Assembly (NCBI GenBank): GCA_902792435.1
Contig: CADAZN010000002.1
Location: 96,283-160,282, forward strand
Length of the DNA: 64,000 nt
Source: an uncultured Bacteroidales bacterium
GTDB lineage: Bacteria > Bacteroidota > Bacteroidia > Bacteroidales > Muribaculaceae
Direction: 5' to 3'
A program made the position numbers and the translations under genes. The notes beneath the pieces were generated by a model. That model worked only from the letters and a program-made list of their open reading frames with translations. It did not search any database and was not told the origin of the DNA. The stretch's first letter is position 1; each line of letters opens with the position of its first letter. Shown here in pieces: positions 3,902 to 18,911 of this stretch.

Positions 3902-4870
3902 TTATTTTGGAACCTCAATCTTGTCGAGCAACGCTTGGGCCAGTCTCTCGACAGTGAAGCCCTGCATCTCGGCGTCAGGCGTTATTATCAAGCGATGCTC
4001 AAGCACTGGAGGCACAATGGTCTTGATATCGTCGGGGGAAACAAAATCGCGGCCCTGCAACAATGCATAGGCCTTTGCTCCCTGAAGAATGCAAATCGAG
4101 GCGCGTGGCGAAGCTCCAAGCTGAATGGCTTGGCTCAAGCGTGTTTGTTGAGTAATTTGAGCTATGTAATTGAGCAATGAGCTGTCGACCACAACCTTGT
4201 CGAGGCATGAGCGCAATTGCAGCAACTCCTCGACGCTCAAAATTGGTTTTATCGATTCCAGTTTTACCATCTTGGCGTTAGCCTGATGACGCTCCAATAT
4301 CTTCACCTCCTCGTCATAGGAAGGATAACCCATGTTAACCTTCATCATGAAACGGTCGAGCTGAGCCTCGGGCAAGCGATAAGTGCCTTCTTGTTCCACA
4401 GGGTTCTGAGTGGCAAGCACTGTGTAAAGTGGAGACATGTGACGTGTCACGCCATCAATAGTGCTTTGACGCTCTTCCATCACCTCAAACAATGCCGCCT
4501 GTGTCTTGGCTGGAGCACGATTTATCTCGTCGACAAGAACAATCTGCGAGAAAACTGGGCCCTTGTGAAACTCAAACTCCTGAGTCTTGATGTTGAACAC
4601 GTTAGTTCCCAAAACATCACTCGGCATAAGGTCGGGGGTGAACTGAATCCTCTTGAAATCGGCATCAATGAGCTTTGATATCAATCGAGTCAGCAACGTC
4701 TTTGCCACACCAGGCACACCCTCCACCAGCACATGACCATCGGCAAGAATGGCGGTCAATATCATGTCTATTGCCCTGTCCTGGCCAACTATCACTGTTG
4801 CGATCGACTCACGCAGTCGGTCAACTTTCTCCTGAAATTCGCTTAAGTCAAATCTGCTATTTGCATCCAT
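3902..4870 (-). CDS. MoxR-family AAA+ ATPase
   Basis: The 322 residues form a single AAA+ module: Walker A GVPGVAKT at 51-58, Walker B VLVDEIN with D114 and E115, sensor 1 TQNP, and a C-terminal lid. This is the MoxR pattern; such ATPases act as chaperones for metal-containing or vWA-domain partners. The partner here is most likely the DUF58 protein just downstream, and the membrane proteins upstream (DUF4350, DUF4129) complete a conserved Bacteroidetes cluster. Cytoplasmic, possibly docked on the membrane proteins. Confidence 0.93.
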   Translation of the reverse strand: MDANSRFDLSEFQEKVDRLRESIATVIVGQDRAIDMILTAILADGHVLVEGVPGVAKTLLTRLISKLIDADFKRIQFTPDLMPSDVLGTNVFNIKTQEFEFHKGPVFSQIVLVDEINRAPAKTQAALFEVMEERQSTIDGVTRHMSPLYTVLATQNPVEQEGTYRLPEAQLDRFMMKVNMGYPSYDEEVKILERHQANAKMVKLESIKPILSVEELLQLRSCLDKVVVDSSLLNYIAQITQQTRLSQAIQLGASPRASICILQGAKAYALLQGRDFVSPDDIKTIVPPVLEHRLIITPDAEMQGFTVERLAQALLDKIEVPK

Positions 4871-4897
4871 ATCTTTTCGTTTTTTATAATTCTTAGT

Positions 4898-6169
4898 TTA
4901 GCTTTCCACAATGCAGTTCATGAAGTCGATGAGCTGTTTTGTTTCATTATCGCTTATTTTTATCTCATCATCGGCCTTAAGCTGTTTCAGCCGATTTATT
5001 GACTCGGTTATAGTCGTAGTGTCAAGGCCCGACACGCTCGCTAGCAACGCCATGTTTTCCTTAAGGTCGACCTCATCGTCAACGTTGACAAGATGCTTGC
5101 GCAACATCGCTTGTGAGAAATGCTTGAATTGGTCTCTTACCATCGCCGCATTGTCATGGTGGCGATAATGCATCAAGCCTATGTGCCTGACCATTGCTAT
5201 CGTCGGGTTCTCGGGTTCCTTAATCACTGGAATCACCCGTTGACGACGACGAGCCGTGAAGAAAAGTGACAGAACTATTGTTAACAAGGCGAGATACACC
5301 GCCCATCTCAACGAGTCATATTTAAGGAAAACTCGTAATGGCGACTGCGACTTGTAATAATCCTCATCAGCATCTGGCACATAACGATAATCATACCTTA
5401 CAATCCCACGCTTGCCTCCCAGGCTGATGAGTCGCATCATCAATTCGGCGCCTCCTCGTTCCAAGACATTATAATTAGTGAATAGCTGAGGGTAGGTAAC
5501 AAGCACAAATCGGCCTTTACCCACATTGCGGGTTGCAGCAACCACACGGTTCATTGAGTTGCCTATTGTCATCACTGGAGTCCAAACTGTTGAATCCGAA
5601 AGAGCACCCTTGGGATTATTCTGATTAAAAATGTTAATTACCGAATAGTCGATGTCAAATCGCCTGAATCGATAATCCCTCGCCTTAAAGGTTCTGTCAC
5701 CCCTCCAACGCAGCGTTGTGGTGTCGGCATTAGCAAAATAATGACTTAGACTATAGGTTTCAAACGAATAACTCCTTTCGGTCGCAACATCGAGAATGTT
5801 GCACAACGTGTCGCACAAGCCATCAGCGTTTACCCAAATAATGCTCTTGCCGCATTCCATAATTTCAAGCAATGTGTCAATCTCTTCTTTGTCATAATCG
5901 GTCAAGGGATAGTCAATGAACAACAACGTGGAGTCATTCTTGCTTTCCTTGTCGTCATCAACACACAGGTAACCTGGCTTCATCCTATACCCATCTTTAA
6001 GGCTTGCCTCCAAAATGCTGTCAACAAGTTTTCCGCCAAACGGATTAGGGTCGTTGTGAGCGTAGGTGGGTTCTTCCCATTTAAATTTCTTGGGAATCTT
6101 TATCTCCACGACGATAACCATTACCATGAGTAGTATTATCGCCACAACAAATCCTTTGCTAAGCTTCAT
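4898..6169 (-). CDS. DUF4350 membrane protein
   Basis: This 423-residue protein starts with a membrane anchor (residues about 7-24), then has a large extracytoplasmic DUF4350 region with LLFIDYPLTDYD, and a second membrane segment near residue 290 (AVYLALLTIVLSLFFTA) followed by a basic cytoplasmic tail. DUF4350 domains resemble the glutamine-amidotransferase-like fold found in membrane clusters next to MoxR; no catalytic residues can be assigned here. Its ATG overlaps the stop of the DUF4129 gene (6166-6169), which indicates coupling. Confidence 0.8.
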   Translation of the reverse strand: MKLSKGFVVAIILLMVMVIVVEIKIPKKFKWEEPTYAHNDPNPFGGKLVDSILEASLKDGYRMKPGYLCVDDDKESKNDSTLLFIDYPLTDYDKEEIDTLLEIMECGKSIIWVNADGLCDTLCNILDVATERSYSFETYSLSHYFANADTTTLRWRGDRTFKARDYRFRRFDIDYSVINIFNQNNPKGALSDSTVWTPVMTIGNSMNRVVAATRNVGKGRFVLVTYPQLFTNYNVLERGGAELMMRLISLGGKRGIVRYDYRYVPDADEDYYKSQSPLRVFLKYDSLRWAVYLALLTIVLSLFFTARRRQRVIPVIKEPENPTIAMVRHIGLMHYRHHDNAAMVRDQFKHFSQAMLRKHLVNVDDEVDLKENMALLASVSGLDTTTITESINRLKQLKADDEIKISDNETKQLIDFMNCIVES

Positions 6170-6864
6170 GCCGGGCCTCCTTCCTCTTGACCAGCTGCGG
6201 CCACCTTAGAATCTTTCACGCGCTCAACTATCGATTCATAGTTGCCAACAATGCCATCAAGCACCGATTGGTTGGCATCACGATCGCCATATCTAACAAG
6301 CACATAGGTGCGCGTCAATTGCGTGAAAGCGGCTTGCTTGTATTCTCTAGTGTATTGAGCTGGTGTTTTGTAGATGCGCCAGTCAATAACTTCATGGTCG
6401 CTAAGGAACTTCAGGCACTGCAAGTATCGCAATCTAACAGCCTCACGATAGTCGTCACGCCCCACTGCCGCTGCTATCTCCTTGTCGAAGTCGATGCCGT
6501 AAATGGTTTCCTCCCCCACTTCATAGTCATCGGCCGCTTTCTCTTTCTTCTTGAAGAAGAACATCTTTTTCTTATAGATATAGTAAAGTATCGTCACAAG
6601 CGCTACTGCAGCAATTCCAATCCACACCCAGCGCATCAGGTTGTTGGAATTGATTATGGCGTCAGGCGAGTTGAAAAGGCTGCTCAGCACGTCGTCGAGC
6701 CAACGGCCAAAGTCGTCCTTCACTTTCTCCAGCAACGACTTTTGCTCTACTGTTATCTCTGAATTATAATCGTAGTTGCCATCGTTAATTATCTTTTTTA
6801 ACAACGACGAGTCGCAAACTATAGTATCGCTAACGTTTATTCCCACATTCACCTTCATTATCAT
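6166..6864 (-). CDS. DUF4129 membrane protein
   Basis: A 232-residue protein with one clear transmembrane segment near residues 79-99 (MRWVWIGIAAVALVTILYYI), a basic stop-transfer KKKMFFFKKKEK, and a C-terminal cytoplasmic DUF4129 region (DDYREAVRLRYLQCLKFL). The stretch before the membrane segment has no signal peptide, although many family members have one; the ORF begins right after the stop of the upstream gene (two-base gap), so a longer form is not possible in this frame. Function is unknown; the family is nearly always found with MoxR and DUF58. Confidence 0.78.
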   Translation of the reverse strand: MIMKVNVGINVSDTIVCDSSLLKKIINDGNYDYNSEITVEQKSLLEKVKDDFGRWLDDVLSSLFNSPDAIINSNNLMRWVWIGIAAVALVTILYYIYKKKMFFFKKKEKAADDYEVGEETIYGIDFDKEIAAAVGRDDYREAVRLRYLQCLKFLSDHEVIDWRIYKTPAQYTREYKQAAFTQLTRTYVLVRYGDRDANQSVLDGIVGNYESIVERVKDSKVAAAGQEEGGPA

Positions 6865-6866
6865 TA

Positions 6867-7769
6867 CTATAAGTTTGCAAAATCATCAATATCGCTGGCA
6901 ATAGCCAGGTCATCTTGCTCTCGAGCATTGCTGCCATAGTGATAAACCAACGTTGTTATCACCAGCGACATCGACAGGTAACCAAAGAAGGTTTGCACTA
7001 TAAGGAACAGATACAGAACGATATCATAGGTGACACTTAGAGCTGCTGTCGGCGTGCCACTATAACTTAGGCTATTAGTTGCAAATGCAAAAACGAGCAT
7101 AGGCATTCCTGTAACCGATTGAATGATCATCACAACAAGCACCATCGAGAACATCAGCCCAAACAAGTTGCCCCAAGAAGCCGAAGCATGACTGAAACAA
7201 CGATTGAAGGCCTCACGCAAGTTAACCGATTCTAGCACATAATGAATGGGCACAATCATTAATATAAAAAACAACAATGCGTAAATCAAGAAAACCAACA
7301 ATGAGATAAATGGCAACAGCATAAAAAAGAACACCAACAGCGAGCTCAATGCCATTATTACTATTATGGGTAACATTGCTTTCAACACTCGCTTGAGATT
7401 ATGCCACATTTGAGATTTCACATCTCGAAATGTGAGCATCGACAAGTCGCCGTCACTGCTACCTTGATAATACTGAAACAATGTGAGAATCAGGGTGTAA
7501 GTAAAGCATAAAACGATTAATGATAAAATCATCGATGACAAGACTCCAAGATCTGTTTCATTATTAAAACTATCGTCGCTCATGGAGCGAACGATGGTGA
7601 ACATGCCACCACTTTGAATCAAGGCAAGTGGTAACATCATGTAGATAGAGAACCGTAATGCCACACGCCAATTCTGCCTTAAAAAATCTATCGCAGCATT
7701 GATCTTCTCGCCCAGGGTGCGACGGGCATAAAGCGGTATCTTGGTGCTTGTGTCACTCGTTGTTGCCAT
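6867..7769 (-). CDS. Multi-pass membrane protein of the MoxR/DUF58 cluster
   Basis: About 300 residues with six or so hydrophobic segments (for example around ALRFSIYMMLPLALI and LLVFFFMLLPFISLLVFLIY). I do not recognise a named domain. The start is placed at ATG 7769 (MATTSDTS), because the upstream part of the open frame lies inside the SpoIIM-like gene and looks like a shadow. The 17-base overlap with that gene and the tight packing downstream show it belongs to the same operon. A role as a membrane subunit of the MoxR-associated complex is inference from position. Confidence 0.72.
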   Translation of the reverse strand: MATTSDTSTKIPLYARRTLGEKINAAIDFLRQNWRVALRFSIYMMLPLALIQSGGMFTIVRSMSDDSFNNETDLGVLSSMILSLIVLCFTYTLILTLFQYYQGSSDGDLSMLTFRDVKSQMWHNLKRVLKAMLPIIVIMALSSLLVFFFMLLPFISLLVFLIYALLFFILMIVPIHYVLESVNLREAFNRCFSHASASWGNLFGLMFSMVLVVMIIQSVTGMPMLVFAFATNSLSYSGTPTAALSVTYDIVLYLFLIVQTFFGYLSMSLVITTLVYHYGSNAREQDDLAIASDIDDFANL

Positions 7770-8715
7770 AATGCGATAACCAGTAAGGATAAATAATGTA
7801 ATAAAACACCACAAATATTGCCGACGTTGAAATCAGCAATACTTTGAACCACAATGGCCACTCAACATGGCGAGTCAGGAAACCCTCGATAAATGCGGCA
7901 ACCACGAGCACCGGCACCGTGCCTACCACAATCTTGAGCCCACGCTTTGAACTCCTGCGCAACGACTCGAGGCGACTGTAGGTGCCAGGAAACAGCCAAC
8001 CATTTCCTAAGGCTATTCCTGCCGCTCCAGCAACAACTATCGCACTCAGCTCAAGGGTGCCATGAAGCATCACTGCTGTCCACGACTGTGCAAGAACTCC
8101 CTGGCTGTACAGAAAAGTGAAAAAGGCACCAAGCATCACTCCGTTTGAGAAGATAAGATACCCCACTGCTATGCTGGTGAAAATTCCAGCGGCAAAAGCC
8201 AAGAATGCGACTTGAACGTTATGAAACATGAGACTTAGGAACGACTCGGTTGCTCCACCCATGGAGTAAACGTTCATGGGCCGACCATGCTTTATGTTGT
8301 CGAGAGTCATGTCGATGTAATAATCGCCCATAATGAGTCGCGGGAAAGAGTCTTCATATAGCGTGGAGACCACTCCTATCAAAGCAGCGACAACAAATAT
8401 TGCGAGCGACATCAAGAGATACTTGCGCTCCCGCCACATCGTGAGTGGCACTTCCCTAGTCCAGTAGGTGATCACTCGGCGCCAATTCTCATGTTTCTCC
8501 TTGTAAATCTCATTATGTAGCTTTATGGTCAAGTCGTTGAGATAGGAAGTTATCTCCGAGTTGGGATAATGCGACTGGGCAAAAGCAAGATCCGCAGAAA
8601 CATCTATATAGACATCGGCCTTGTGAGAAGGAGATTCACACTCTCCACGGCTTATCTGGTACTCAAAATTCCGCCATTTGCCGATGTTTTGCTTAATAAA
8701 AACTGATTCCCGCAT
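7753..8715 (-). CDS. SpoIIM-like (stage II sporulation protein M family) membrane protein
   Basis: The 320-residue protein opens with MRESVFIKQNIGKWRNFE, the typical start of the SpoIIM-like family of non-sporulating bacteria, followed by a long soluble part and at least four membrane segments, with the conserved small-residue-rich stretch around GYLIFSNGVMLGAFFTF and HGTLELSAIVVAGAAG. The organism does not sporulate in any known relative; the family name is historical. It is the first gene of the minus-strand MoxR/DUF58 operon and shares an overlapping divergent promoter with the RDD gene. Confidence 0.85.
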   Translation of the reverse strand: MRESVFIKQNIGKWRNFEYQISRGECESPSHKADVYIDVSADLAFAQSHYPNSEITSYLNDLTIKLHNEIYKEKHENWRRVITYWTREVPLTMWRERKYLLMSLAIFVVAALIGVVSTLYEDSFPRLIMGDYYIDMTLDNIKHGRPMNVYSMGGATESFLSLMFHNVQVAFLAFAAGIFTSIAVGYLIFSNGVMLGAFFTFLYSQGVLAQSWTAVMLHGTLELSAIVVAGAAGIALGNGWLFPGTYSRLESLRRSSKRGLKIVVGTVPVLVVAAFIEGFLTRHVEWPLWFKVLLISTSAIFVVFYYIIYPYWLSHYGNNE

Positions 8716-8744
8716 GTTAAAGAAAAATGTTACGCCGTTTAGAA

Positions 8745-8774
8745 TTGCAAAAATAAATAATTTTACTATATTTG
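8745..8774 (+). promoter_or_regulatory. Promoter of the RDD gene, overlapping the divergent one
   Basis: A TTG at 8745-8747 and TATATTTG at 8767-8774, 19 bases apart, point to the plus strand. The ATG of the RDD gene is at 8799. Confidence 0.75.
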
Positions 8775-8778
8775 CAAA
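8748..8778 (-). promoter_or_regulatory. Promoter of the SpoIIM/MoxR operon, overlapping the divergent one
   Basis: Read on the minus strand, TTTG (8778-8775) and TATTTTTG (8755-8748) are 19 bases apart, placing a start of transcription about 30 bases before the ATG at 8715. The boxes interleave with the plus-strand promoter: each uses one half of a TTTGCAAA or ATTGCAAA palindrome. Confidence 0.65.
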
Positions 8779-8798
8779 AACTAAAGAGCACTTTTCTC

Positions 8799-9545
8799 AT
8801 GGCGAACATAAAAATCACTACAGGGCAACACGTTAACGTTGAGCAGCGCATGGCGAGTGTTGGCGACAGGATTTATGCACAGATTCTTGACACTATTTTC
8901 ATTTCCATCTATTTTGTCATTATCACCACATTGGTTGGCATGCTTGCCTCAGCTGCCTATTTCGCCAAGAACACCAGCTTTTTAGCAGCAATCTTGTTTT
9001 TAGCCTATCTGCCCATCGTCATCTACCACCCCGTGTCGGAATTTTTCTTCAATGGCGCGAGCCCTGGCAAGAAGATTCTAAAGCTGCAAGTGGTGAAAAT
9101 CGACGGCTCGGCGCCCTCGCTGGGCGATTATCTCACCCGATGGGCTATCTTCCTAATCGAGTGCCTGATAATGCCAGGAATCGCTCTGCTGTGCATTCTG
9201 TTCAACAAGAACGGGCAGCGACTTGGCGACCTCATGGCTGGCACTGTCGTCATCAAGAGGGATGGTTACCAAAAGTATTATTTTGACTTGAGCAACTTTG
9301 GATATGTCAACCCTGGCTACAAGCCCTACTATCCTGAGGCAGCTACCCTCTCGATGCGACAAGCCGAAGTGATTAGGCAAACTCTCGTGAACAATAACGC
9401 CAACAGGCATTATTACATCGACTTGCTGAGCAACACCGTGAGGCAACATCTACGCATTCCGCCGCTTGAGGGCGGCAACAACGAAGCCTTCCTCAACACT
9501 ATCCTGAACGATTATCGGTTCTACTCCTCAACAATCGAAATCTAG
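8799..9545 (+). CDS. RDD family membrane protein
   Basis: A 248-residue protein whose N-terminal half is an RDD domain: RIYAQILDTIFI, then a pair of membrane helices, SPGKKILKLQVV, and a third hydrophobic stretch with the closing motif RLGDLMAGTVVIKR. The C-terminal 90 residues are soluble and not recognised. RDD proteins are small integral membrane proteins of unclear role, sometimes linked to ion transport. The start is ATG 8799, since the frame upstream contains the -7 promoter box. It is divergent from the SpoIIM/MoxR operon and probably belongs to the same functional unit. Confidence 0.85.
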   Translation: MANIKITTGQHVNVEQRMASVGDRIYAQILDTIFISIYFVIITTLVGMLASAAYFAKNTSFLAAILFLAYLPIVIYHPVSEFFFNGASPGKKILKLQVVKIDGSAPSLGDYLTRWAIFLIECLIMPGIALLCILFNKNGQRLGDLMAGTVVIKRDGYQKYYFDLSNFGYVNPGYKPYYPEAATLSMRQAEVIRQTLVNNNANRHYYIDLLSNTVRQHLRIPPLEGGNNEAFLNTILNDYRFYSSTIEI

Positions 9546-12300: not shown

Positions 12301-12332
12301 TTTGCCACTTTGAGAAATCTTGTGTATATTTG
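12301..12332 (+). promoter_or_regulatory. Promoter of the acetyltransferase-nitroreductase pair
   Basis: TTTG at 12301-12304 and TATATTTG at 12325-12332, 20 bases apart; the ATG follows at 12348, so the frame upstream of it is not translated. Confidence 0.75.
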
Positions 12333-12347
12333 CCAGAAAAAAGAGAT

Positions 12348-12821
12348 ATGAGAATAAGAAGAGCCGAAAATCGTGACATTCCACGCATTCATGAGCTGCT
12401 CACTCAAGTCAACAACGTTCACGCACAAGGGCGCCCCGACATCTTTAAGAGCGGGAACCGAAAATATACCGATGAGCAACTTGTGGAGATTATTGATAAT
12501 CAAGATAAAACTCCCATCTTTGTATTGGTCAATGATGAAGATGTGGTGTTGGGATACTGCTTTAGCATTGTTGAGCAGTTTATCAATGACAATAACCGCA
12601 CCGACATAAAGACTCTTTATATTGATGACCTGTGTGTCGACGAGACTTTTCGCCGCCAGCACATTGCCAAGCGGTTGTTTGACCATGTGACATCCTGGGC
12701 ACGCAGCAACGGCTTCTACAACATCACGCTCAACGTGTGGGAGTGCAATCCAGGGGCAAGAGCCTTCTACGACAAGTGCGGCATGAAACCCCTCAAAACC
12801 TATCTCGAAACAATATTATGA
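12348..12821 (+). CDS. GNAT-family N-acetyltransferase
   Basis: A 157-residue single-domain GNAT acetyltransferase. The acetyl-CoA binding strand-loop appears as IDDLCVDETFRRQHIAKRLF (R/Q-x-x-G/A variant near residues 90-110), followed by LNVWECNPGARAFYDKCGM, the usual end of the fold. It most resembles small-molecule or protein N-acetyltransferases of the RimI-like group, but the substrate cannot be told. The start at 12348 is set by the promoter just upstream. The TGA overlaps the ATG of the nitroreductase gene, so the two are cotranscribed. Confidence 0.85.
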   Translation: MRIRRAENRDIPRIHELLTQVNNVHAQGRPDIFKSGNRKYTDEQLVEIIDNQDKTPIFVLVNDEDVVLGYCFSIVEQFINDNNRTDIKTLYIDDLCVDETFRRQHIAKRLFDHVTSWARSNGFYNITLNVWECNPGARAFYDKCGMKPLKTYLETIL

Positions 12822-13498
12822 CTATGGACCTAATAGAAGCTATCAAGGCGAGGCATTCGGTGCGTCACTATCTTGACCGTCCTATCGAAGCCGAGAAAAT
12901 CGAGCGGCTACAACAGCTCGCCAGCAACTACAACAAGCTGAGCGGGCTCCACATTCAGCTCATAACCAATGAGCCACGCTCCTTTGGCGAGAGCCTGCTA
13001 GCGCGCTACGGCAAGTTCAGCGGTGTGAGCAACTATTTTGCCATGATAGGGAAAAGGGGCGACAACCTCGACGAGACCGTCGGGTATTATGGCGAGAAAC
13101 TGGTGCTCGAAGCGCAAATGATGGGGCTCAACACTTGCTGGGTTGCTCTTTCCTACAAGAAAATCGCCAGCGTTCTGAGCATCGACGAGGATGAGAAACT
13201 TGTTTGCCTCATCGCTCTAGGATATGGAGCCACACAAGGAGTTGATCACAAAAGGAAATCTCCCGACAAAGTAAGCCTCATCGACGTGAAAACTGCTCCG
13301 CAGTGGTACAAGCAGGGAGTGGCGTGCGCACTACTCGCTCCCACCGCTATCAACCAGCAGAAGTTCAAATTTGCAATCACCGCCTCAGGCACCGTGAAAG
13401 CCAAGGCTGGCCTGGGGCCCTATGCAAAGATTGACCTAGGCATTGTAAAATATCACTTCGAAATAGGAGCGGGAATCAACAATTTCACGTGGGAATAA
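12818..13498 (+). CDS. Nitroreductase family protein (TM-nitroreductase type)
   Basis: A 226-residue FMN-dependent nitroreductase-fold protein. It begins MDLIEAIKARHSVRHYLDRP, the family's FMN-binding start, and has the tandem half-domain arrangement (ACALLAPTAINQQKFKF) of the putative TM nitroreductases, in which both halves sit in one chain. It likely reduces a small substrate with NAD(P)H, but the substrate is unknown. The start is ATG 12818 (or 12824 two codons later), four bases inside the acetyltransferase gene, which argues for coupled translation. Confidence 0.82.
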   Translation: MTMDLIEAIKARHSVRHYLDRPIEAEKIERLQQLASNYNKLSGLHIQLITNEPRSFGESLLARYGKFSGVSNYFAMIGKRGDNLDETVGYYGEKLVLEAQMMGLNTCWVALSYKKIASVLSIDEDEKLVCLIALGYGATQGVDHKRKSPDKVSLIDVKTAPQWYKQGVACALLAPTAINQQKFKFAITASGTVKAKAGLGPYAKIDLGIVKYHFEIGAGINNFTWE

Positions 13499-13528: not shown

Positions 13529-13575
13529 TTTGAATCAAAAGTAGTGACAATTTAATAATTTTGCACTAATTTTGC
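13529..13575 (+). promoter_or_regulatory. Doubled -7 box before the nucleotidyltransferase-aminotransferase gene
   Basis: Two TAATTTTG boxes (13556-13563 and 13567-13574) lie 11 bases apart, with a TTTG at 13529-13532 upstream at a spacing of 23 from the first, which is looser than usual. The unit TTGCACTAATTTTGC at 13561-13575 also occurs before ruvX. Confidence 0.55.
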
Positions 13576-13612
13576 ATAAACGATTTTTTTCACGAAATAA
13601 CATTTATACACG

Positions 13613-15424
13613 ATGCAAGCGATAATACTGGCAGCCGGCATGGGTCGCCGATTGGGCGAGCTCACTCAGGGAAACACTAAGTGCATGATCAAGGTCAACG
13701 GGGTGCGCCTCATCGATCGAATGCTCACGCAGCTGTGTGCGCTCAACCTCAATCGCGTGGTGATTGTGGCAGGCTACAAGGGCAAAGAACTTGTGGAGCA
13801 CATAGGTGACCGATACAACGACAGGCTCAAGATAGAGTGGGCCTGGAACCCAGTGTATGACAAGACCAATAACATCTACTCGCTCTCGATTGTTAAGCAA
13901 CAATTGCAAGAAGATGACACATTGCTCATTGAGAGCGACCTGATTTTTGATGACAAGATGTTCAGCATGATCCTCGCCAACCCCTACCCCAACCTGGCAC
14001 TCGTTGCTAAATATGAGACCTGGATGGATGGAACCATGGTGTGCATCGACAGCGACAACAACATCGTGAACTTCGTGCCCCGCAAGGCCTTCAACTATGA
14101 CGAAGTCGACAGCTACTACAAAACTGTCAACATCTACAAGTTCAGCCGCGAGTTCAGCGAGAGAGTATATGTGCCATTCCTCGACGCCTATTGCCGCGTG
14201 ATGGGCAATAACGAGTACTACGAACAAGTGCTACGCGTAATCACTTTGCTCGACAAGGCCGAGCTCAAAGCGCTGCCTATTGGCAACGAGCGATGGTATG
14301 AGATTGACGACGTGCAGGACCTCGACATAGCTGAGAACATCTTTGCCAGCGAACATGAGAGGCTGGGCAAGTTCAACAAGCGCTATGGCGGCTACTGGCG
14401 ATTCCCCAAGATGCTCGACTATTGCTACCTCGTGAACCCCTTCTTCCCGCCCAAGCGCATGAAAGACGAACTGCGCGCCAACTTCGACGTGCTGCTAACG
14501 CAGTATCCTTCAGGGATGCAGGTAAACGCGCTGCTGGCTGGCAAGTATTTTGGAATCAGGCAGGAGATGGCAGTAGCGGGCAATGGTGCTGCCGAGCTTA
14601 TCAAGACGTTGATGGCAAGTCTGGAGGGGAAAATGGGCGTGGTGCTGCCCACCTTTGAGGAATATCCTAACCGCGTTGAACGCTCAAGGCTTGTGACTTT
14701 CGCCCCTGACAATGCCGACCTGCGTTACACAGCCAGCGACCTCATGCATTACTTTGAAGACAAAGAAATAAGAACCCTGCTACTAGTCAATCCAGATAAC
14801 CCCTCGGGCAATTTTATACCTAAGAACGAGATTCTTGAGCTAGCCATGTGGTGCAAGAACCGTGGCATGAGGCTCGTTGTAGACGAATCATTTGTCGATT
14901 TTGCCGACGATTATGCCACCAGCTCCTTGCTCAAGAACGAGATTCTGCTGCAACACCCCAACTTGGTGGTTATGAAGAGCATCAGCAAGAGCTATGGCGT
15001 GCCGGGTCTGCGACTTGGCGTTATGGCCAGCAGCGACGTGGAGCTAATTGCTCACGCCAAGAAAGATGTTGCAATTTGGAACATCAACTCCTTCGCCGAG
15101 TTCTACATGCAAATTTTCAATAAGTACGAGCAATTCTACAAAGCTGCATGTGCCAAATTCATCGAGGAGCGCAAGCGCTTTAAGTCCGAGCTGAGCAAGA
15201 TTCATTATCTAAGGGTAATCCCGTCGCAAGCCAATTACTTCCTTTGCGAGGTGACCGATGGCTTTACGGCAAGTGAACTCACCCAGATTCTCCTGAACCG
15301 CCACAATATCCTCATCAAGGATTGTAGCAACAAGACCAGTCTTGAAGGCAAGAACTATGTACGCATCGCCATTCGCAACACCGACGACAACAACAAGTTA
15401 ATTCAAGCACTACTCTCACTATGA
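13613..15424 (+). CDS. Bifunctional nucleotidyltransferase-aminotransferase fusion
   Basis: The 603 residues join two enzymes. Residues 1 to about 235 are a LicC-like NTP transferase: LAAGMGRRLGELTQGNTK (GxGxR nucleotide loop and Lys), LLIESDLIFD and WYEIDDVQDLDIAE metal-site acidic residues. Residues from about 270 to the end are a PLP aminotransferase of the HisC/CobD type: GNGAAELI, NPDNPSGNFI, VVDESFVDF and the PLP lysine K459 in SISKSYGVPGLRLG, with a closing arginine in YVRIAIRN. The enzyme probably makes an amino-alcohol or amino-acid phosphate and activates it with CTP or another NTP. The next gene starts at its stop (ATGA). With the LicD gene nearby, a surface phospho-decoration pathway is inferred. 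The substrate is unknown; no PEP mutase is present for a phosphonate route. Confidence 0.85.
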   Translation: MQAIILAAGMGRRLGELTQGNTKCMIKVNGVRLIDRMLTQLCALNLNRVVIVAGYKGKELVEHIGDRYNDRLKIEWAWNPVYDKTNNIYSLSIVKQQLQEDDTLLIESDLIFDDKMFSMILANPYPNLALVAKYETWMDGTMVCIDSDNNIVNFVPRKAFNYDEVDSYYKTVNIYKFSREFSERVYVPFLDAYCRVMGNNEYYEQVLRVITLLDKAELKALPIGNERWYEIDDVQDLDIAENIFASEHERLGKFNKRYGGYWRFPKMLDYCYLVNPFFPPKRMKDELRANFDVLLTQYPSGMQVNALLAGKYFGIRQEMAVAGNGAAELIKTLMASLEGKMGVVLPTFEEYPNRVERSRLVTFAPDNADLRYTASDLMHYFEDKEIRTLLLVNPDNPSGNFIPKNEILELAMWCKNRGMRLVVDESFVDFADDYATSSLLKNEILLQHPNLVVMKSISKSYGVPGLRLGVMASSDVELIAHAKKDVAIWNINSFAEFYMQIFNKYEQFYKAACAKFIEERKRFKSELSKIHYLRVIPSQANYFLCEVTDGFTASELTQILLNRHNILIKDCSNKTSLEGKNYVRIAIRNTDDNNKLIQALLSL

Positions 15425-16446
15425 TAAATATTTGCATCTGCGGTGGCGGTTCACTTGGCCACACCATTGCTGGTTTTGTCGCTTCGCAAAAAGATTACAA
15501 TGTTAGTGTCTTGACTCGTAGCCCGCACCGATGGAGTAAATCGATTGAAATCACCGATTTGAACAACAAGCATTTTATAGGGGAATTATCATGTGTTACC
15601 GATAACCCTTCGTTAGTTGTTTCTAATGCTGATATTGTACTGCTGTGCCTGCCAGGTCCTGCTATTAAAGATGTTCTGAAAAAGATAAGGCCATATCTAA
15701 ACAATAACACTTTTGTTGGAACTGTAGTGTCGAGTACTGGCTTTTTCTTTATGGCCACTCAACTTCTGCCATGTGACATACCTATTTTTGGGTTCCAGCG
15801 TGTGCCGTTTATTGCCCGTGTCAAAGAATATGGTAAAAGTGCCAACTTATTAGGTTATAAACCAAGTCTTAGCGTTGCTATTGAACACTCATCCTATGAA
15901 AAAAAGCGAGAGTTGGCATTGTTGCTTGAGCGCATTTTCAACGTCCCTATAAAATTGTTAAGCAGTCATTATGAGGTGAGTCTCACCAACAGCAATCCAC
16001 TGCTTCACACCTCTCGAATTTATACTCTTTGGAAAGACTGGAAGCCAGGCATCAAGTATGACCACTGTCCGCTATTTTATGCAGATTGGACCATCGAGGC
16101 AGCTCATTATTATATTAATATGGACCGTGAATTTCAAGCATTGCTCAAGTTGCTTCCAGTAACACAAGGAGCTATTCCTAATGTTCTTGACTACTATGAG
16201 AGTCACGATGAGAAATCGCTATGTGACAAACTCGCCTCTATTCCAGCGTTCAAAAGTATAATGGCTCCAATGATTGGTAATGATGATGATGGTTATGTGC
16301 CAGATTTCAATAGTCGCTACTTTACAGAAGATTTTCCTTATGGTCTATATTCTATTGTGAAAGTGGCAAAAGACATTAATTTCTCAACACCTGTAATTGA
16401 CGAGGTCTTTCAGTGGGGAATGGACGTAATTGCTCAAAACCAGTAG
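15421..16446 (+). CDS. NAD/NADP octopine/nopaline dehydrogenase-like protein
   Basis: A 341-residue two-domain dehydrogenase. The N-terminal Rossmann fold reads CICGGGSLGHTIAGF, with VLLCLPGPAIKDVL near residue 80; the C-terminal all-helical domain holds NSNPLLHTSRIYTLW, where the histidine matches the catalytic position of the opine dehydrogenase family. Such enzymes reductively join an amino acid to a keto acid, and relatives occur in capsule and O-antigen clusters. It is translationally coupled to the fusion gene (four-base overlap) and runs 13 bases into the convergent licD. Base composition is more AT-rich than that of the housekeeping neighbours. Confidence 0.83.
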   Translation: MINICICGGGSLGHTIAGFVASQKDYNVSVLTRSPHRWSKSIEITDLNNKHFIGELSCVTDNPSLVVSNADIVLLCLPGPAIKDVLKKIRPYLNNNTFVGTVVSSTGFFFMATQLLPCDIPIFGFQRVPFIARVKEYGKSANLLGYKPSLSVAIEHSSYEKKRELALLLERIFNVPIKLLSSHYEVSLTNSNPLLHTSRIYTLWKDWKPGIKYDHCPLFYADWTIEAAHYYINMDREFQALLKLLPVTQGAIPNVLDYYESHDEKSLCDKLASIPAFKSIMAPMIGNDDDGYVPDFNSRYFTEDFPYGLYSIVKVAKDINFSTPVIDEVFQWGMDVIAQNQ

Positions 16447-17216
16447 GCTTCAAAATCGTGGTGCACCCGTTTTTCAACAGGAGGCAGAGTCATGTAATCG
16501 CCATAAGTCTTCTCAAGATATTCCTTGTAGCCCACCATCGTCTTATAGTTTTTGCCCTCAAAAAGGATGTCGACATCGCTCGAAATGCAGCTCGATGAGA
16601 AACACCCTTCAATGCCAGGACCAGCCTCGGTCATGTTGCACACTAGCGATGATGGCTTGTTGTGAGCAATCAGTCTGTCGAGTTCATTGTTGATGCTTTT
16701 AACGCTCCTTGGCCAATGTTTATAAACAATATAGGCCCATCGAGAGTATAATGGGTTATTGTGAGATATTTTGCACCGCCTTATCTTGTTGAGAAACCTC
16801 TTGCGCTTGAAAACTTTCTGCCTAACCGACAAATCTTCGCTCACATAATCAACCGGAAACACATCGACATAAACCCCTATTTCAAAGCCGGGAGTTTCTT
16901 GCTCCACCACCCTTGTTTTAGTATCTACAACTTTAGCAAAAGTGTAGTAGTAATTCGCTTCGGTGCGTGGGTTGATAACATAATATCTTCCCGACTCGCT
17001 ACTGAATTTCGCAAGAAACTGCTCATAACTCTCGCGAGGCATATACAAGTCGATGTCGTCGTCCCATGGAATATATCCTTGATGGCGCACAGCTCCAAGC
17101 AGTGTGCCGCTCGAAAGAAAATAGATGATGCCTTCACGCTGGCAAAACTCATGAATCTCGTCAAGTATCGAAATCTGTATCGACCTCAATTCGGTAATAT
17201 CGGTTATTCGTCTCAT
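16434..17216 (-). CDS. LicD-family phosphotransferase
   Basis: LicD-family proteins transfer phosphocholine-like groups from a nucleotide carrier onto glycans, or belong to the wider nucleotidyltransferase-fold set. The signature FLSSGTLLGAVRHQGYIPWD is followed directly by the acidic cluster DDIDLYMPR near residues 52-60, the metal site of the fold. The start is put at ATG 17216 (MRRITDITELRSIQ), since the first ten codons of the longer frame (from 17246) contain a good -7 box. It converges with the opine dehydrogenase gene, overlapping by 13 bases. As transferase it would complete a pathway with the fusion enzyme; the acceptor is unknown. Confidence 0.85.
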   Translation of the reverse strand: MRRITDITELRSIQISILDEIHEFCQREGIIYFLSSGTLLGAVRHQGYIPWDDDIDLYMPRESYEQFLAKFSSESGRYYVINPRTEANYYYTFAKVVDTKTRVVEQETPGFEIGVYVDVFPVDYVSEDLSVRQKVFKRKRFLNKIRRCKISHNNPLYSRWAYIVYKHWPRSVKSINNELDRLIAHNKPSSLVCNMTEAGPGIEGCFSSSCISSDVDILFEGKNYKTMVGYKEYLEKTYGDYMTLPPVEKRVHHDFEAYWF

Positions 17217-17224
17217 AGTCTCTG

Positions 17225-17254
17225 CAAAGTTAGTCTTTTTATCCATTATTTCAA
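17225..17254 (-). promoter_or_regulatory. Probable licD promoter with minimal leader
   Basis: Minus-strand TTG (17254-17252) and TAACTTTG (17232-17225) are 19 bases apart. The inferred ATG follows nine bases after the last G, the same geometry as at ruvX. No other -7 box was found between this gene and gpmI. Confidence 0.5.
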
Positions 17255-17296
17255 CAAAAAAATGTGATGATAATTGTAAAAAAATGTTGTTTATTT

Positions 17297-17327
17297 TTTG
17301 TAATGCGCCTAAAATGATATATATTTG
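17297..17327 (+). promoter_or_regulatory. Promoter of gpmI
   Basis: TTTG at 17297-17300 and TATATTTG at 17320-17327, 19 bases apart. The leader to the ATG at 17394 would be about 62 bases. Confidence 0.8.
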
Positions 17328-17393
17328 CAGTCCTAATAAAGTTTTATTAAGGAAAGATAAATTGAAGTTCTAAACTTAAATTTACCTAATTTG

Positions 17394-18911
17394 ATGAGTA
17401 ACAGAGCATTATTAATAATCCTTGACGGTTGGGGCATTGGCGACCACTCTAAGAGTGATGCCATTTTCTCAACACCAACCCCCTATTGGGACTACTTGAT
17501 GGAAACTTTTCCACACAGTCAGCTCCAAGCCAGCGGTGAAAATGTTGGTTTACCCGATGGACAGATGGGCAATAGCGAAGTTGGACACCTCAACATAGGC
17601 GGCGGACGTGTTGTCTATCAAGATCTCGTCAAGATTAATAAAGCCATTAAGGACAAGTCTATCCTTGAGAATCCTGAAATCGTCAATGCGTTCAATTATG
17701 CCAAAGAGAATGGCAAAGCTATGCATTTCATGGGATTAACAAGTGATGGCGGTGTTCATAGCTCACTAGACCATTTGTTTGCCTTATGCGACATTGCACA
17801 TGATTATGAGTTGAAGGATGTTTTCATCCACTGCTTCATGGATGGCCGCGACACCGACCCTGAGAGCGGAAAAGGTTTTGTCGGCCAGCTTGAAGAGCAT
17901 TGCGCCAAGAGTTCAGGAGTGGTTGCTACTGTTACAGGACGCTATTATGCAATGGATCGCGATAAGCGATGGGAACGCATCAAGATGGCCTATGACCAGC
18001 TGGTTCATGGCGAAGGCCGTAAGAGCGACAATATGGTTCAAGCCATACAAGAATCATATGACGAGGGCGTTACCGACGAGTTTATCAAACCCATTGTAAA
18101 CTCAACTGTTGATGGCCGCATCAAAGATGGAGATGTTGTAATCTTCTTTAATTTCCGTAATGACCGAGCCAAGGAGTTGACAATCGTTCTCACTCAACAA
18201 GACATGCCAGAAGTTGGGATGACCACCATTCCCAACCTACAATATTACTGCATGACGCCTTACGATGCTTCATTCACTGGAGTGCATGTTATCTTCAAGA
18301 AAGACAATGTTGACAACACTCTAGCACAATATCTTGCATCACAAGGTAAGCGACAGCTACATATTGCCGAGACCGAAAAATATGCTCACGTCACTTTCTT
18401 CTTCAACGGCGGTCGTGAGGAGCCTTTTGAGAACGAAGATAGAATTCTTGTTCCTTCGCCCAAAGTGGCTACCTATGACCTCAAGCCTGAAATGAGCGCC
18501 TACGAAGTAAAAGACAAGCTGATTGAAGCAATCAAAGAAACTAAGTATGACTTTATTGTAGTGAACTATGCTAACGGCGACATGGTAGGTCACACAGGTG
18601 TTTATGACGCCATTGTGAAAGCTGTTGAGACCATCGACAACTGCCTGCACGACACCGTGGAAGCTGCCAAGGAGGCTAATTATGAGATCATCATCATTGC
18701 CGATCATGGCAACTGCGATAATGCTATCAACAAGGACGGCACCCCCAACACTGCCCATTCACTCAATCCAGTACCATTCATCTTTGTAAGCAACAACAAG
18801 AATGCTACTGTGAATGATGGTAGACTTGCCGATGTCGCTCCATCGATACTACAAATTATGGAACTAGCCCAACCAACCGACATGACAGGAACCGGGCTCA
18901 TTAATAAGTAA
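17394..18911 (+). CDS. gpmI: 2,3-bisphosphoglycerate-independent phosphoglycerate mutase
   Basis: GpmI interconverts 3- and 2-phosphoglycerate in glycolysis using a phosphoserine intermediate and manganese. The 505 residues have the alkaline-phosphatase-type metal sites: [10 protein letters not shown] at the start, [14 protein letters not shown] with the phosphorylated serine near residue 60, HCFMDGRDT, and near the C-terminus [11 protein letters not shown] and [11 protein letters not shown] 17394 is preferred to the TTG one codon earlier. The gene has its own promoter and terminator and stands alone. Confidence 0.97.

Follow-up and report, generated by a model that had tools for sequence, protein, structure and literature searches.

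What does a surface-decoration cassette make when its genes can activate and transfer an amine-bearing phosphate and the usual sources of such a group cannot be found in the genome? Three genes in a 64,000-nucleotide stretch of DNA from an uncultured Bacteroidales bacterium of the Muribaculaceae (contig CADAZN010000002.1, positions 96,283 to 160,282; contig C2 of a 2.96-Mb assembly that is 93% complete) raise this question. We call the whole stretch the window. The genes encode a nucleotidyltransferase (NT) fused to a pyridoxal phosphate (PLP) enzyme, an opine dehydrogenase homolog (ODH) and a convergent LicD protein. We consider it somewhat better than an even bet that this cassette makes and attaches a modified phosphoethanolamine, running from phosphoserine to cytidine diphosphate (CDP)-ethanolamine, through modification of the amine, to transfer by LicD onto a glycan.

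O-phospho-L-serine is a normal intermediate of serine synthesis. In the proposed route the PLP domain would decarboxylate it to phosphoethanolamine, which the NT domain would combine with CTP to yield CDP-ethanolamine. The ODH would then condense the amine of CDP-ethanolamine with an alpha-keto acid, most likely pyruvate, and reduce the imine with NAD(P)H to CDP-N-(1-carboxyethyl)ethanolamine, from which LicD would move N-(1-carboxyethyl)ethanolamine phosphate onto a glycan that is either lipid-linked or at the surface. The slot for the modifier is exchangeable: an enzyme of the ornithine cyclodeaminase (OCD)/mu-crystallin family often takes the place of the ODH and would probably use another keto acid or set the configuration the other way round. 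In some distant bacteria the gene next to the fusion encodes an N-methyl-, N-formyl- or N-acetyltransferase. The identities of the genes, the fusion and its triple form, the exchange at the slot, the decarboxylase-like signatures and the missing markers of other pathways can be read from the sequences themselves. An earlier note on this DNA had envisaged an amino-alcohol or amino-acid phosphate activated as a nucleoside monophosphate derivative, which the dehydrogenase would perhaps alkylate before its attachment to a surface glycan. In its amino-alcohol form, with LicD making the attachment, that idea is still the best reading of the genes; the swapping slot and the wider distribution had escaped it, and the system, as surveyed here, is wider and more modular than its author supposed.

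The cassette and its parts

Open reading frame (ORF) calling and Pfam searches verified the three genes and bore out what had been claimed of their layout, namely a 603-aa fusion, an ODH coupled to it by ATGA and a LicD gene that overlaps the ODH by 13 bases.

13613-15424, + strand: NT/PLP fusion gene (ORF, 603 aa)
13613-14347, + strand: N-terminal NT domain of the fusion, LicC/PntC-like (Pfam PF12804/PF00483; LicC 1jyk and PntC 6pd1 are the nearest solved structures)
14348-15424, + strand: C-terminal PLP domain of the fusion, CobD/SMUL_1544-like, with PLP Lys459 (TIGR01140, Foldseek, diagnostic columns)
15421-15424, + strand: ATGA stop/start overlap between fusion and ODH (TGA 15422-15424, ATG 15421-15423)
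15421-16446, + strand: ODH-like gene (ORF, 341 aa), an NAD(P)H enzyme of the opine dehydrogenase family (PF02317, AlphaFold/Foldseek, invariant H196/R299/D304)
16434-16446, no strand assigned: convergent ODH/LicD overlap of 13 bases (ORF coordinates; equal length in six related loci)
16434-17246, - strand: LicD gene (ORF, 270 aa), a predicted LicD-family phosphotransferase (PF04991; in 56 of 91 fusion loci a LicD is no more than six genes away)

The fusion matches NTP_transf_3/NTP_transferase and Aminotran_1_2 (E 3.3e-34), the ODH matches Octopine_DH PF02317 (E 2.6e-28; 99.4 bits against a cut-off of 30) and LicD matches PF04991 (E 4.7e-42; 145 bits against a cut-off of 22.6). The 13-base convergent overlap is also found in L054, L055, L110, L111, L112 and L118, a recurrence that is more than chance. 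Both the stop and the start of the ATGA junction are gone in triple fusions of 943-946 aa, described below.

The PLP domain is most likely a decarboxylase

The fusion had been described as a LicC-like NT joined to a HisC/CobD-like aminotransferase. The family assignments stand, and the activity is read differently here: profiles, structure comparison and alignment columns together indicate that the PLP half is most likely a decarboxylase of the CobD/SMUL_1544 kind rather than an aminotransferase. Its best NCBIfam profile was CobD (TIGR01140) at 194 bits, short of the cut-off of 290.55, and the hisC profile (TIGR01141) gave 146 bits, short of 276.55. By sequence, the best solved relative was 6oux, titled "SMUL_1544, a decarboxylase" in the Foldseek list, followed by 3ftb and then Salmonella CobD 1lc5. 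For the predicted structure of the fusion (predicted local distance difference test, pLDDT, 88.8) the top Foldseek match over both domains was PntC-AEPT (6pd1/6pd2). For the PLP domain, the order of E-values placed SMUL_1544 and Salmonella CobD ahead of 3ftb, 3fkd and all HisC-named entries shown, with CobD structures scoring beside SMUL_1544.

Column counts were taken from an alignment of 86 fusions and five references. These 86 of the 91 fusions also underlie the tree discussed below (length excluded L066, L068, L131 and L177, and 10 unknown residues excluded L145). K216 of CobD and K214 of E. coli HisC, the PLP lysines of those enzymes, align with Lys459, which is kept in 84 of the 86, the window's fusion among them. 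Fusions without a lysine at this column are found at L059 8631-10478 (SISSSSG) and L181 6039-7859; their PLP half may have decayed, and neither has an ODH or OCD within three genes. N324, F427, W489 and N492 are the same in CobD, SMUL_1544 and 3ftb, and R588 is common to CobD and SMUL_1544 and is Lys in 3ftb; both HisC references differ at all five positions. Each of the five residues occurs in 85-86 of the 86 fusions, in columns that were picked as diagnostic after the alignment had been seen. CYLxNP, S300 and S426 are common to the fusions and SMUL_1544 and differ in CobD; K574 is likewise SMUL_1544-like and unlike CobD, yet is found in one HisC reference. On these signatures, the domain is probably an O-phosphoserine decarboxylase. 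Read as a decarboxylase, it would allow the amine to derive from O-phosphoserine without a kinase or a mutase.

The NT domain probably makes CDP-ethanolamine

LicC and PntC are the nearest solved relatives of the NT domain, and LicC 1jyk was its best profile match (E 3.2e-19). E107 is invariant in 24 of 24 sequences and aligns with E104 of Tde-PntC, a Glu near the substrate amine for which the LicC equivalent is given as Asp105 (PMC6697681); matching the printed numbering of 1jyk to D105 is our own count. Because Glu107 is as in PntC, a small primary amine should be favored, and the residue hints at a smaller amine than in LicC. The domain is probably a CTP:phosphoethanolamine cytidylyltransferase. 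That the activated headgroup would carry CDP is supported by LicD and by CDP-alcohol transferases at related loci: a CDP-alcohol phosphotransferase occupies LicD's position in L067, another such transferase comes behind the Erwinia fusion, and an unfused NT and CobD-like pair is followed by one in nine of nine loci of the 33-35% group (Pfam-checked in two). These nine operons (L187-L195; for example, L187 710-3273) run NT, CobD-like PLP enzyme, CDP-alcohol phosphotransferase and contain no ODH or OCD.

Reductases of two different families lie beside the fusion

The AlphaFold model of the ODH (pLDDT 94.9) had octopine dehydrogenase as its top Foldseek match, then N-(1-D-carboxylethyl)-L-norvaline dehydrogenase. 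H196, R299 and D304 are invariant in 21 of 21 sequences and align with H212, R324 and D329 of octopine dehydrogenase, which we take to be its catalytic residues. The closest named relatives found (80%) belong to Muribaculaceae metagenome-assembled genomes from buffalo and yak rumen, and a contig scan with the ODH as query gave three loci.

The profile of the OCD family had 14 solved relatives, of which seven are called imine reductase, dehydrogenase or mu-crystallin and the other seven (putative) cyclodeaminase. They include pyrroline-2-carboxylate reductase (the best), alanine dehydrogenase, iminosuccinate reductase and mu-crystallin; cyclodeaminases for lysine and ornithine are among them as well. 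Pfam places ODH and OCD in separate families (PF02317 and PF02423), and when the two were compared directly, the match was weak and confined to the nucleotide-binding part (blastp E 0.06; hhalign probability 12%, E 0.0025). Since both families act on C-N bonds with a nicotinamide cofactor, a substrate common to them should be an amine. We predict that the ODH is a CDP-ethanolamine N-(1-carboxyalkyl) synthase.

A second, longer ODH subfamily (400 aa) occurs at L055 506-1708 and in L108. Its neighbors in L055 (506-3601) are a GH88-like gene and one for a WecG/TagA glycosyltransferase, and those in L108 are of equal sizes.

The fusion keeps company with ODH or OCD

We searched 393 genomes from the window's order (ODH match threshold E 1e-8) and found an ODH match in 17 and the fusion in 13, in 12 of them as one ORF; in G266 (L068 8503-10453) the NT and PLP domains fall into two separate ORFs. 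All six genomes with a close ODH (36-100% identity) carry the fusion, and none of the 11 with a distant ODH only (32% or less) does, the split at 36% having been set after the list had been seen. The chance of six out of six is 3.5e-10, or 1.1e-8 for five out of five once the window's genome is removed, with kinship allowed for in neither figure. ODH and fusion are adjacent in four of these six genomes; in G194 and G293 the close ODH (L069 5165-6214; L070 8499-9506) is on a contig other than the fusion's. OCD (PF02423) exceeded its cut-off in three of the 13 fusion genomes (G139, G034 and G383), adjoining the fusion each time, and all three lack a close ODH.

A search at family level found fusion matches in 74 of 297 genomes, from which 75 places were taken and three partial ones left out (one in G510, two in G446). 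Together with 19 others and the window, this made 95 inspected loci, three named loci included, of which 91 contain the fusion. Some genomes contribute two loci, and the loci are related; neighbors were labeled by phmmer against our own queries at bit thresholds, with misses possible and Pfam run on a sample. Within three genes of the fusion, 29 loci have an ODH (three of them fused in), 34 an OCD, four both and 24 neither, so that one reductase or the other is present in 67 of 91. Where the reductase is the next gene downstream, it is on the strand of the fusion in 25 of 25 cases for ODH and 34 of 38 for OCD, and the spacing is -4 in 15 of the 25 immediate fusion-ODH pairs. Within six genes, LicD is found in 56 loci, a CDP-alcohol transferase in one and neither in 34, and a flippase-like gene in 57. 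Any reductase plus LicD accompanies the fusion in 43 loci. In L135, L157, L164 and L166, the fusion is followed by an OCD and an ODH in tandem, perhaps for two N-modifications in succession.

ODH and OCD replace one another at the modifier slot

Comparison of orthologous loci indicates that ODH and OCD replace one another. Between L118, which has an ODH, and L127, which has an OCD, the fusion is 80% identical, LicD 89%, the flippase 86% and three genes beyond 79-91%, the genes on the other side match at 51-77%, and the reductases show no match. In L114, L116 and L119 (genomes G655, G594 and G629) NT, PLP and ODH form one chain of 943-946 aa; at the corresponding place L115 has a 607-aa fusion with a convergent OCD, and fusion and neighbors match those of L116 at 72-97%. 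Because of the triple fusion, the tight spacing and the exchange at exactly this slot, we tie the reductase to the product of the fusion.

On a tree of the fusions (quick LG+G4; 20 of 83 inner branches open, three long rows flagged) the fewest ODH/OCD changes numbered 18, a figure that wrong branches would inflate; for the ODH label, 14 changes are forced by well-supported branches alone. Label shuffling gave a mean of 23.7 changes against the 18 observed, with four of 500 shuffles as low, and for the OCD label a mean of 26.4 against 23, with 45 of 500 as low. Replacement and loss from an ancestor with two reductases look alike to parsimony.

Known pathways do not account for the cassette

The earlier note had pointed to the absence of PEP (phosphoenolpyruvate) mutase and choline kinase, and this extends to the whole genome: at 93% completeness, it gave no match for PEP mutase, choline kinase, CbiB or hisD. 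Among the 13 order-level fusion genomes, PEP mutase was over its cut-off in one, choline kinase in two, CbiB in none and hisD in five. We rejected a cobalamin role on the zero of 13 for CbiB (found in 8 of 14 control genomes) and, for the window genome, a histidine role, there being no hisD (13 of 14 controls) and no HisC over the cut-off. A phosphonate role was rejected in the absence of any PEP mutase match in the window genome; the single fusion genome with the enzyme over the cut-off is G383 (410 bits), and none of the 14 controls exceeds it. The choline/ethanolamine kinase route was likewise rejected for the window genome, where PF01633 has no match; in the 13 fusion genomes this family reached E 0.001 or better in five and the cut-off in G101 and G286 only. 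As matches to CbiB, hisD, PEP mutase and choline kinase are missing here, none of the routes by way of cobalamin, histidine, phosphonate or choline explains the cassette. The CbiB and hisD counts, with CobD and HisC scores far under their cut-offs, also speak against assigning the fusion to cobalamin or histidine synthesis.

Some distant loci have other amine modifiers

We opened six distant loci, consisting of five of the 13 plasmid records that cover at least 80% of the fusion (H1, H2, H3, H5 and H6) and H4, in which the match to the fusion lies in three pieces. Beside the fusion in three of the six is another amine modifier: a methyltransferase in Gloeothece, a formyltransferase in Fusobacterium and an acetyltransferase in Priestia. 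Gloeothece has a row of fusion, methyltransferase and LicD. In Fusobacterium vincentii (fusion 48% identity) the formyltransferase gene overlaps the start of the fusion by 4 bases, with LicD further upstream; downstream, a DUF1015 gene overlaps the fusion, and the top three PDB matches of its protein are all to free serine kinase, at a weak E of 0.012, with DGHHR common to both. This record (L196, NZ_CP084075.1) is 2.1 Mb long and, though filed as a plasmid, chromosome-sized. In Priestia, the gene for an AAC(3)-family acetyltransferase, far under the cut-off for aminoglycoside enzymes, lies 2 bases upstream of the fusion, and the stretch examined has no LicD. These distant homologs agree in part with a slot for amine modifiers.

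Plasmid L203 of Rhizobium sp. 007 (3920-8815) has a row of NT, CDP-alcohol transferase, CobD-like PLP enzyme, ODH and methyltransferase; immediately upstream are an IS6 transposase and additional, partial copies of the genes for NT and CDP-alcohol transferase. Matches to the ODH were found in 46 plasmid records, two of them from Proteus; the plasmid ODHs of Paraburkholderia, Burkholderia and Serratia have other gene contexts, and in L201 and L202 (Paraburkholderia and Burkholderia plasmids) two ODH genes lie by a methyltransferase, a phytanoyl-CoA dioxygenase and a tyrosinase. A CobD-like group at a greater distance (28-32%), found in five genomes and scanned at three loci, adjoins genes for peptidase C26. 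In these loci (L046, L048 and L051) stand-alone CobD-like genes lie beside peptidase C26 of the gamma-glutamyl hydrolase type, in L046 also beside a glutamine-synthetase-like gene, and perhaps belong to another small-amine pathway.

Weighing the alternatives

A number of observations weigh against the route from phosphoserine. Its substrates, the sequence in which its steps run, the choice of keto acid, the stereochemistry and the glycan acceptor are all things that we infer. The co-occurrence of the three genes, to which the earlier note had looked, holds in part: fusion, ODH (or both reductases) and LicD are found together in 21 of 91 loci and, among the 13 order-level fusion genomes, only in the window's own. 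But where the ODH is missing, another C=N reductase is often in its place, so that a nearby ODH or OCD is the looser form of the association, and a triple fusion exists. No LicD or CDP-alcohol enzyme is in view in 34 loci. Neither reductase is within three genes in 24, of which L173 and L177 end at once, L145 contains a run of 122 unknown bases, the ODH of L161 is four genes off and most have room. Four loci hold ODH and OCD together, and the three triple-fusion genomes belong to the same genus and one clade. Among the distant loci, annotation gives no amine modifier in Pseudonocardia and Erwinia, and the free-serine-kinase match in Fusobacterium is weak. We rejected the NT-CobD-CDP-alcohol operon as a replacement for phosphatidylserine decarboxylase (Psd), since Psd is present in all 22 genomes examined, the nine with the operon included; the operon therefore does not replace the usual phosphatidylethanolamine route. 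In the PLP domain, position 569 (CobD R323) is Lys in 75 fusions, Ser in nine, Arg in one and Glu in one (n = 86) and Arg in all five references, and Asp395, present in 86 of 86 fusions, is Asn in all five, so the substrate site has changed. Finally, 3ftb, second in the sequence search and 14th in Foldseek amid decarboxylases, is deposited as HisC, which limits arguments from entry names.

The last two points also favor a true HisC-like transaminase, which would aminate a phospho-ketone (dihydroxyacetone phosphate to serinol phosphate, for example), the product then being activated with CMP and N-alkylated. It shares the fold superfamily, the hisC profile scores 146 bits, the HisC-deposited 3ftb is the second-best solved relative, and serinol is known from the capsule of Campylobacter jejuni. 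We regard this as unlikely, if the best placed of the alternatives: 85 of 86 fusions have F427 at a position that is Tyr, presumably in contact with PLP, in both HisC references, W489, N492 and R588 are of CobD type (3ftb has Lys at R588), and SMUL_1544 and Salmonella CobD precede every HisC-named Foldseek entry. Nearly as improbable as the transaminase is a fusion that supplies plain CDP-ethanolamine to LicD while ODH and OCD act elsewhere, for example on a glycan amino sugar or in making a free opine. The 24 loci lacking a nearby reductase, the close ODH of G194 and G293 on another contig and the second ODH subfamily in a polysaccharide locus (L055 506-1708) would fit it; the triple fusion, the tight spacing and the exchange at that very slot argue otherwise.

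A shade less probable again is a CobD-like L-threonine-O-3-phosphate decarboxylase, which would build the headgroup on (R)-1-aminopropan-2-ol phosphate. CobD is the best NCBIfam profile and CobD structures score beside SMUL_1544, but this reading requires a threonine kinase, CYLxNP, S300 and S426 link the fusions to SMUL_1544 and not to CobD (as does K574, which one HisC reference shares), the Fusobacterium neighbor is, weakly, serine-kinase-like, and none of the 13 fusion genomes has CbiB. Least of all do we expect an ordinary enzyme of aminoethylphosphonate, cobalamin or histidine metabolism, which we consider very unlikely. The domain order is that of PntC-AEPT 6pd1/6pd2, the top Foldseek matches, G383 has PEP mutase over the cut-off and five of 13 fusion genomes have hisD; against this, PEP mutase is found in one of 13 and CbiB in none, the window genome has none of the three markers, and the PLP half is class I/II where that of 6pd1 is named class V. 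For the window genome such an enzyme is contradicted unless the ~7% that the assembly lacks holds its partner genes. The decarboxylation of phosphoserine is our preferred reading.

Relation to known systems and significance

The cassette resembles the Lic system of phosphocholine decoration, represented by Proteus mirabilis O18, in its LicC-like cytidylyltransferase, its LicD and the attachment of an amine-bearing phosphate to a glycan of the surface. The O18 genes licD and wzx, the latter for the flippase, overlap, and many fusion loci run fusion, reductase, flippase, LicD, resembling licABC-wzx-licD (PMC8027243), with the flippase-like gene within six genes in 57 of 91. It differs in that the window genome has no choline kinase match and the locus no flippase beside LicD, the headgroup apparently derives from phosphoserine via the fused PLP enzyme, and the amine would be modified by the reductase. 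PntC-AEPT (6pd1/6pd2; PMC6697681) also combines an N-terminal cytidylyltransferase with a C-terminal PLP enzyme, near LicD-like genes. In contrast, the PLP domain of the window's fusion is CobD-like and not an aminoethylphosphonate transaminase, an ODH or OCD is added, PEP mutase is over its cut-off in just one of 13 fusion genomes, and the whole two-domain models do not superpose (template modeling score, TM, 0.36; root-mean-square deviation about 22). With the SMUL_1544/CobD decarboxylases (6oux, 1lc5-1lkc) the fusion shares the fold, the PLP lysine and the diagnostic residues; it differs in being joined to an NT, in the absence of CbiB and in having mostly Lys in place of Arg at 569. The ODH is like octopine and opine dehydrogenases (3c7a, 1bg6) in fold and in the aligned invariant His, Arg and Asp, and its predicted amine partner is CDP-ethanolamine, not an amino acid.

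We take N-[(R)-1-carboxyethyl]ethanolamine phosphate (R-Cet-EtnP) to belong to P. mirabilis serogroup O14. Opine dehydrogenases usually set a D (R) centre, which fits its R configuration. R-Cet-EtnP, the headgroup predicted for the cassette, is a known bacterial polysaccharide component: it is named in the legend to a figure on K. pneumoniae capsules and P. mirabilis O-polysaccharides, and in the glossary too (PMC9630907). The portion of that text examined assigns no genes to it, and the term "carboxyethyl" does not occur in the accessible part of a Proteus serotyping paper (PMC5560731); we infer the link between the residue and the cassette genes.

More broadly, and with a little less than even confidence, we suggest a widespread modular headgroup system in which a fused enzyme makes CDP-ethanolamine from phosphoserine, an interchangeable enzyme (ODH, OCD, methyl-, formyl- or acetyltransferase) edits the amine and LicD or a CDP-alcohol transferase attaches the product. 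If so, no environmental ethanolamine or choline would be needed, frequent swapping of one enzyme would alter surface charge and antigenicity without touching the other steps, and with an ODH in the slot the genes would encode a route to N-(1-carboxyethyl)ethanolamine phosphate. Commensal gut and rumen bacteria would have a route to a family of zwitterionic phosphate decorations with modified amines, and there would be candidate gene families for one polysaccharide residue of known structure. The slot would also be a clear example of a pathway position at which enzymes of different families have been swapped again and again. All the parts come from known families; their combination, the phosphoserine origin and the exchanging slot appear new as far as the literature searched shows. 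That literature, outside which most subscription journals fell, contained no published account of the cassette or of bacterial phosphoserine-based CDP-ethanolamine synthesis.

Neighboring genes in the window

Upstream of the cassette, at 12330-13498, lie genes for a GNAT acetyltransferase and a TM1586-type nitroreductase, which are not among the labeled fusion neighbors elsewhere (their homologs were not searched for). On the other side, 17246-18911 is without the flippase that comes after LicD in L054, L055, L110-L112 and L118; LicD is followed instead by a 506-aa gene that, by eye, resembles phosphoglycerate mutase.

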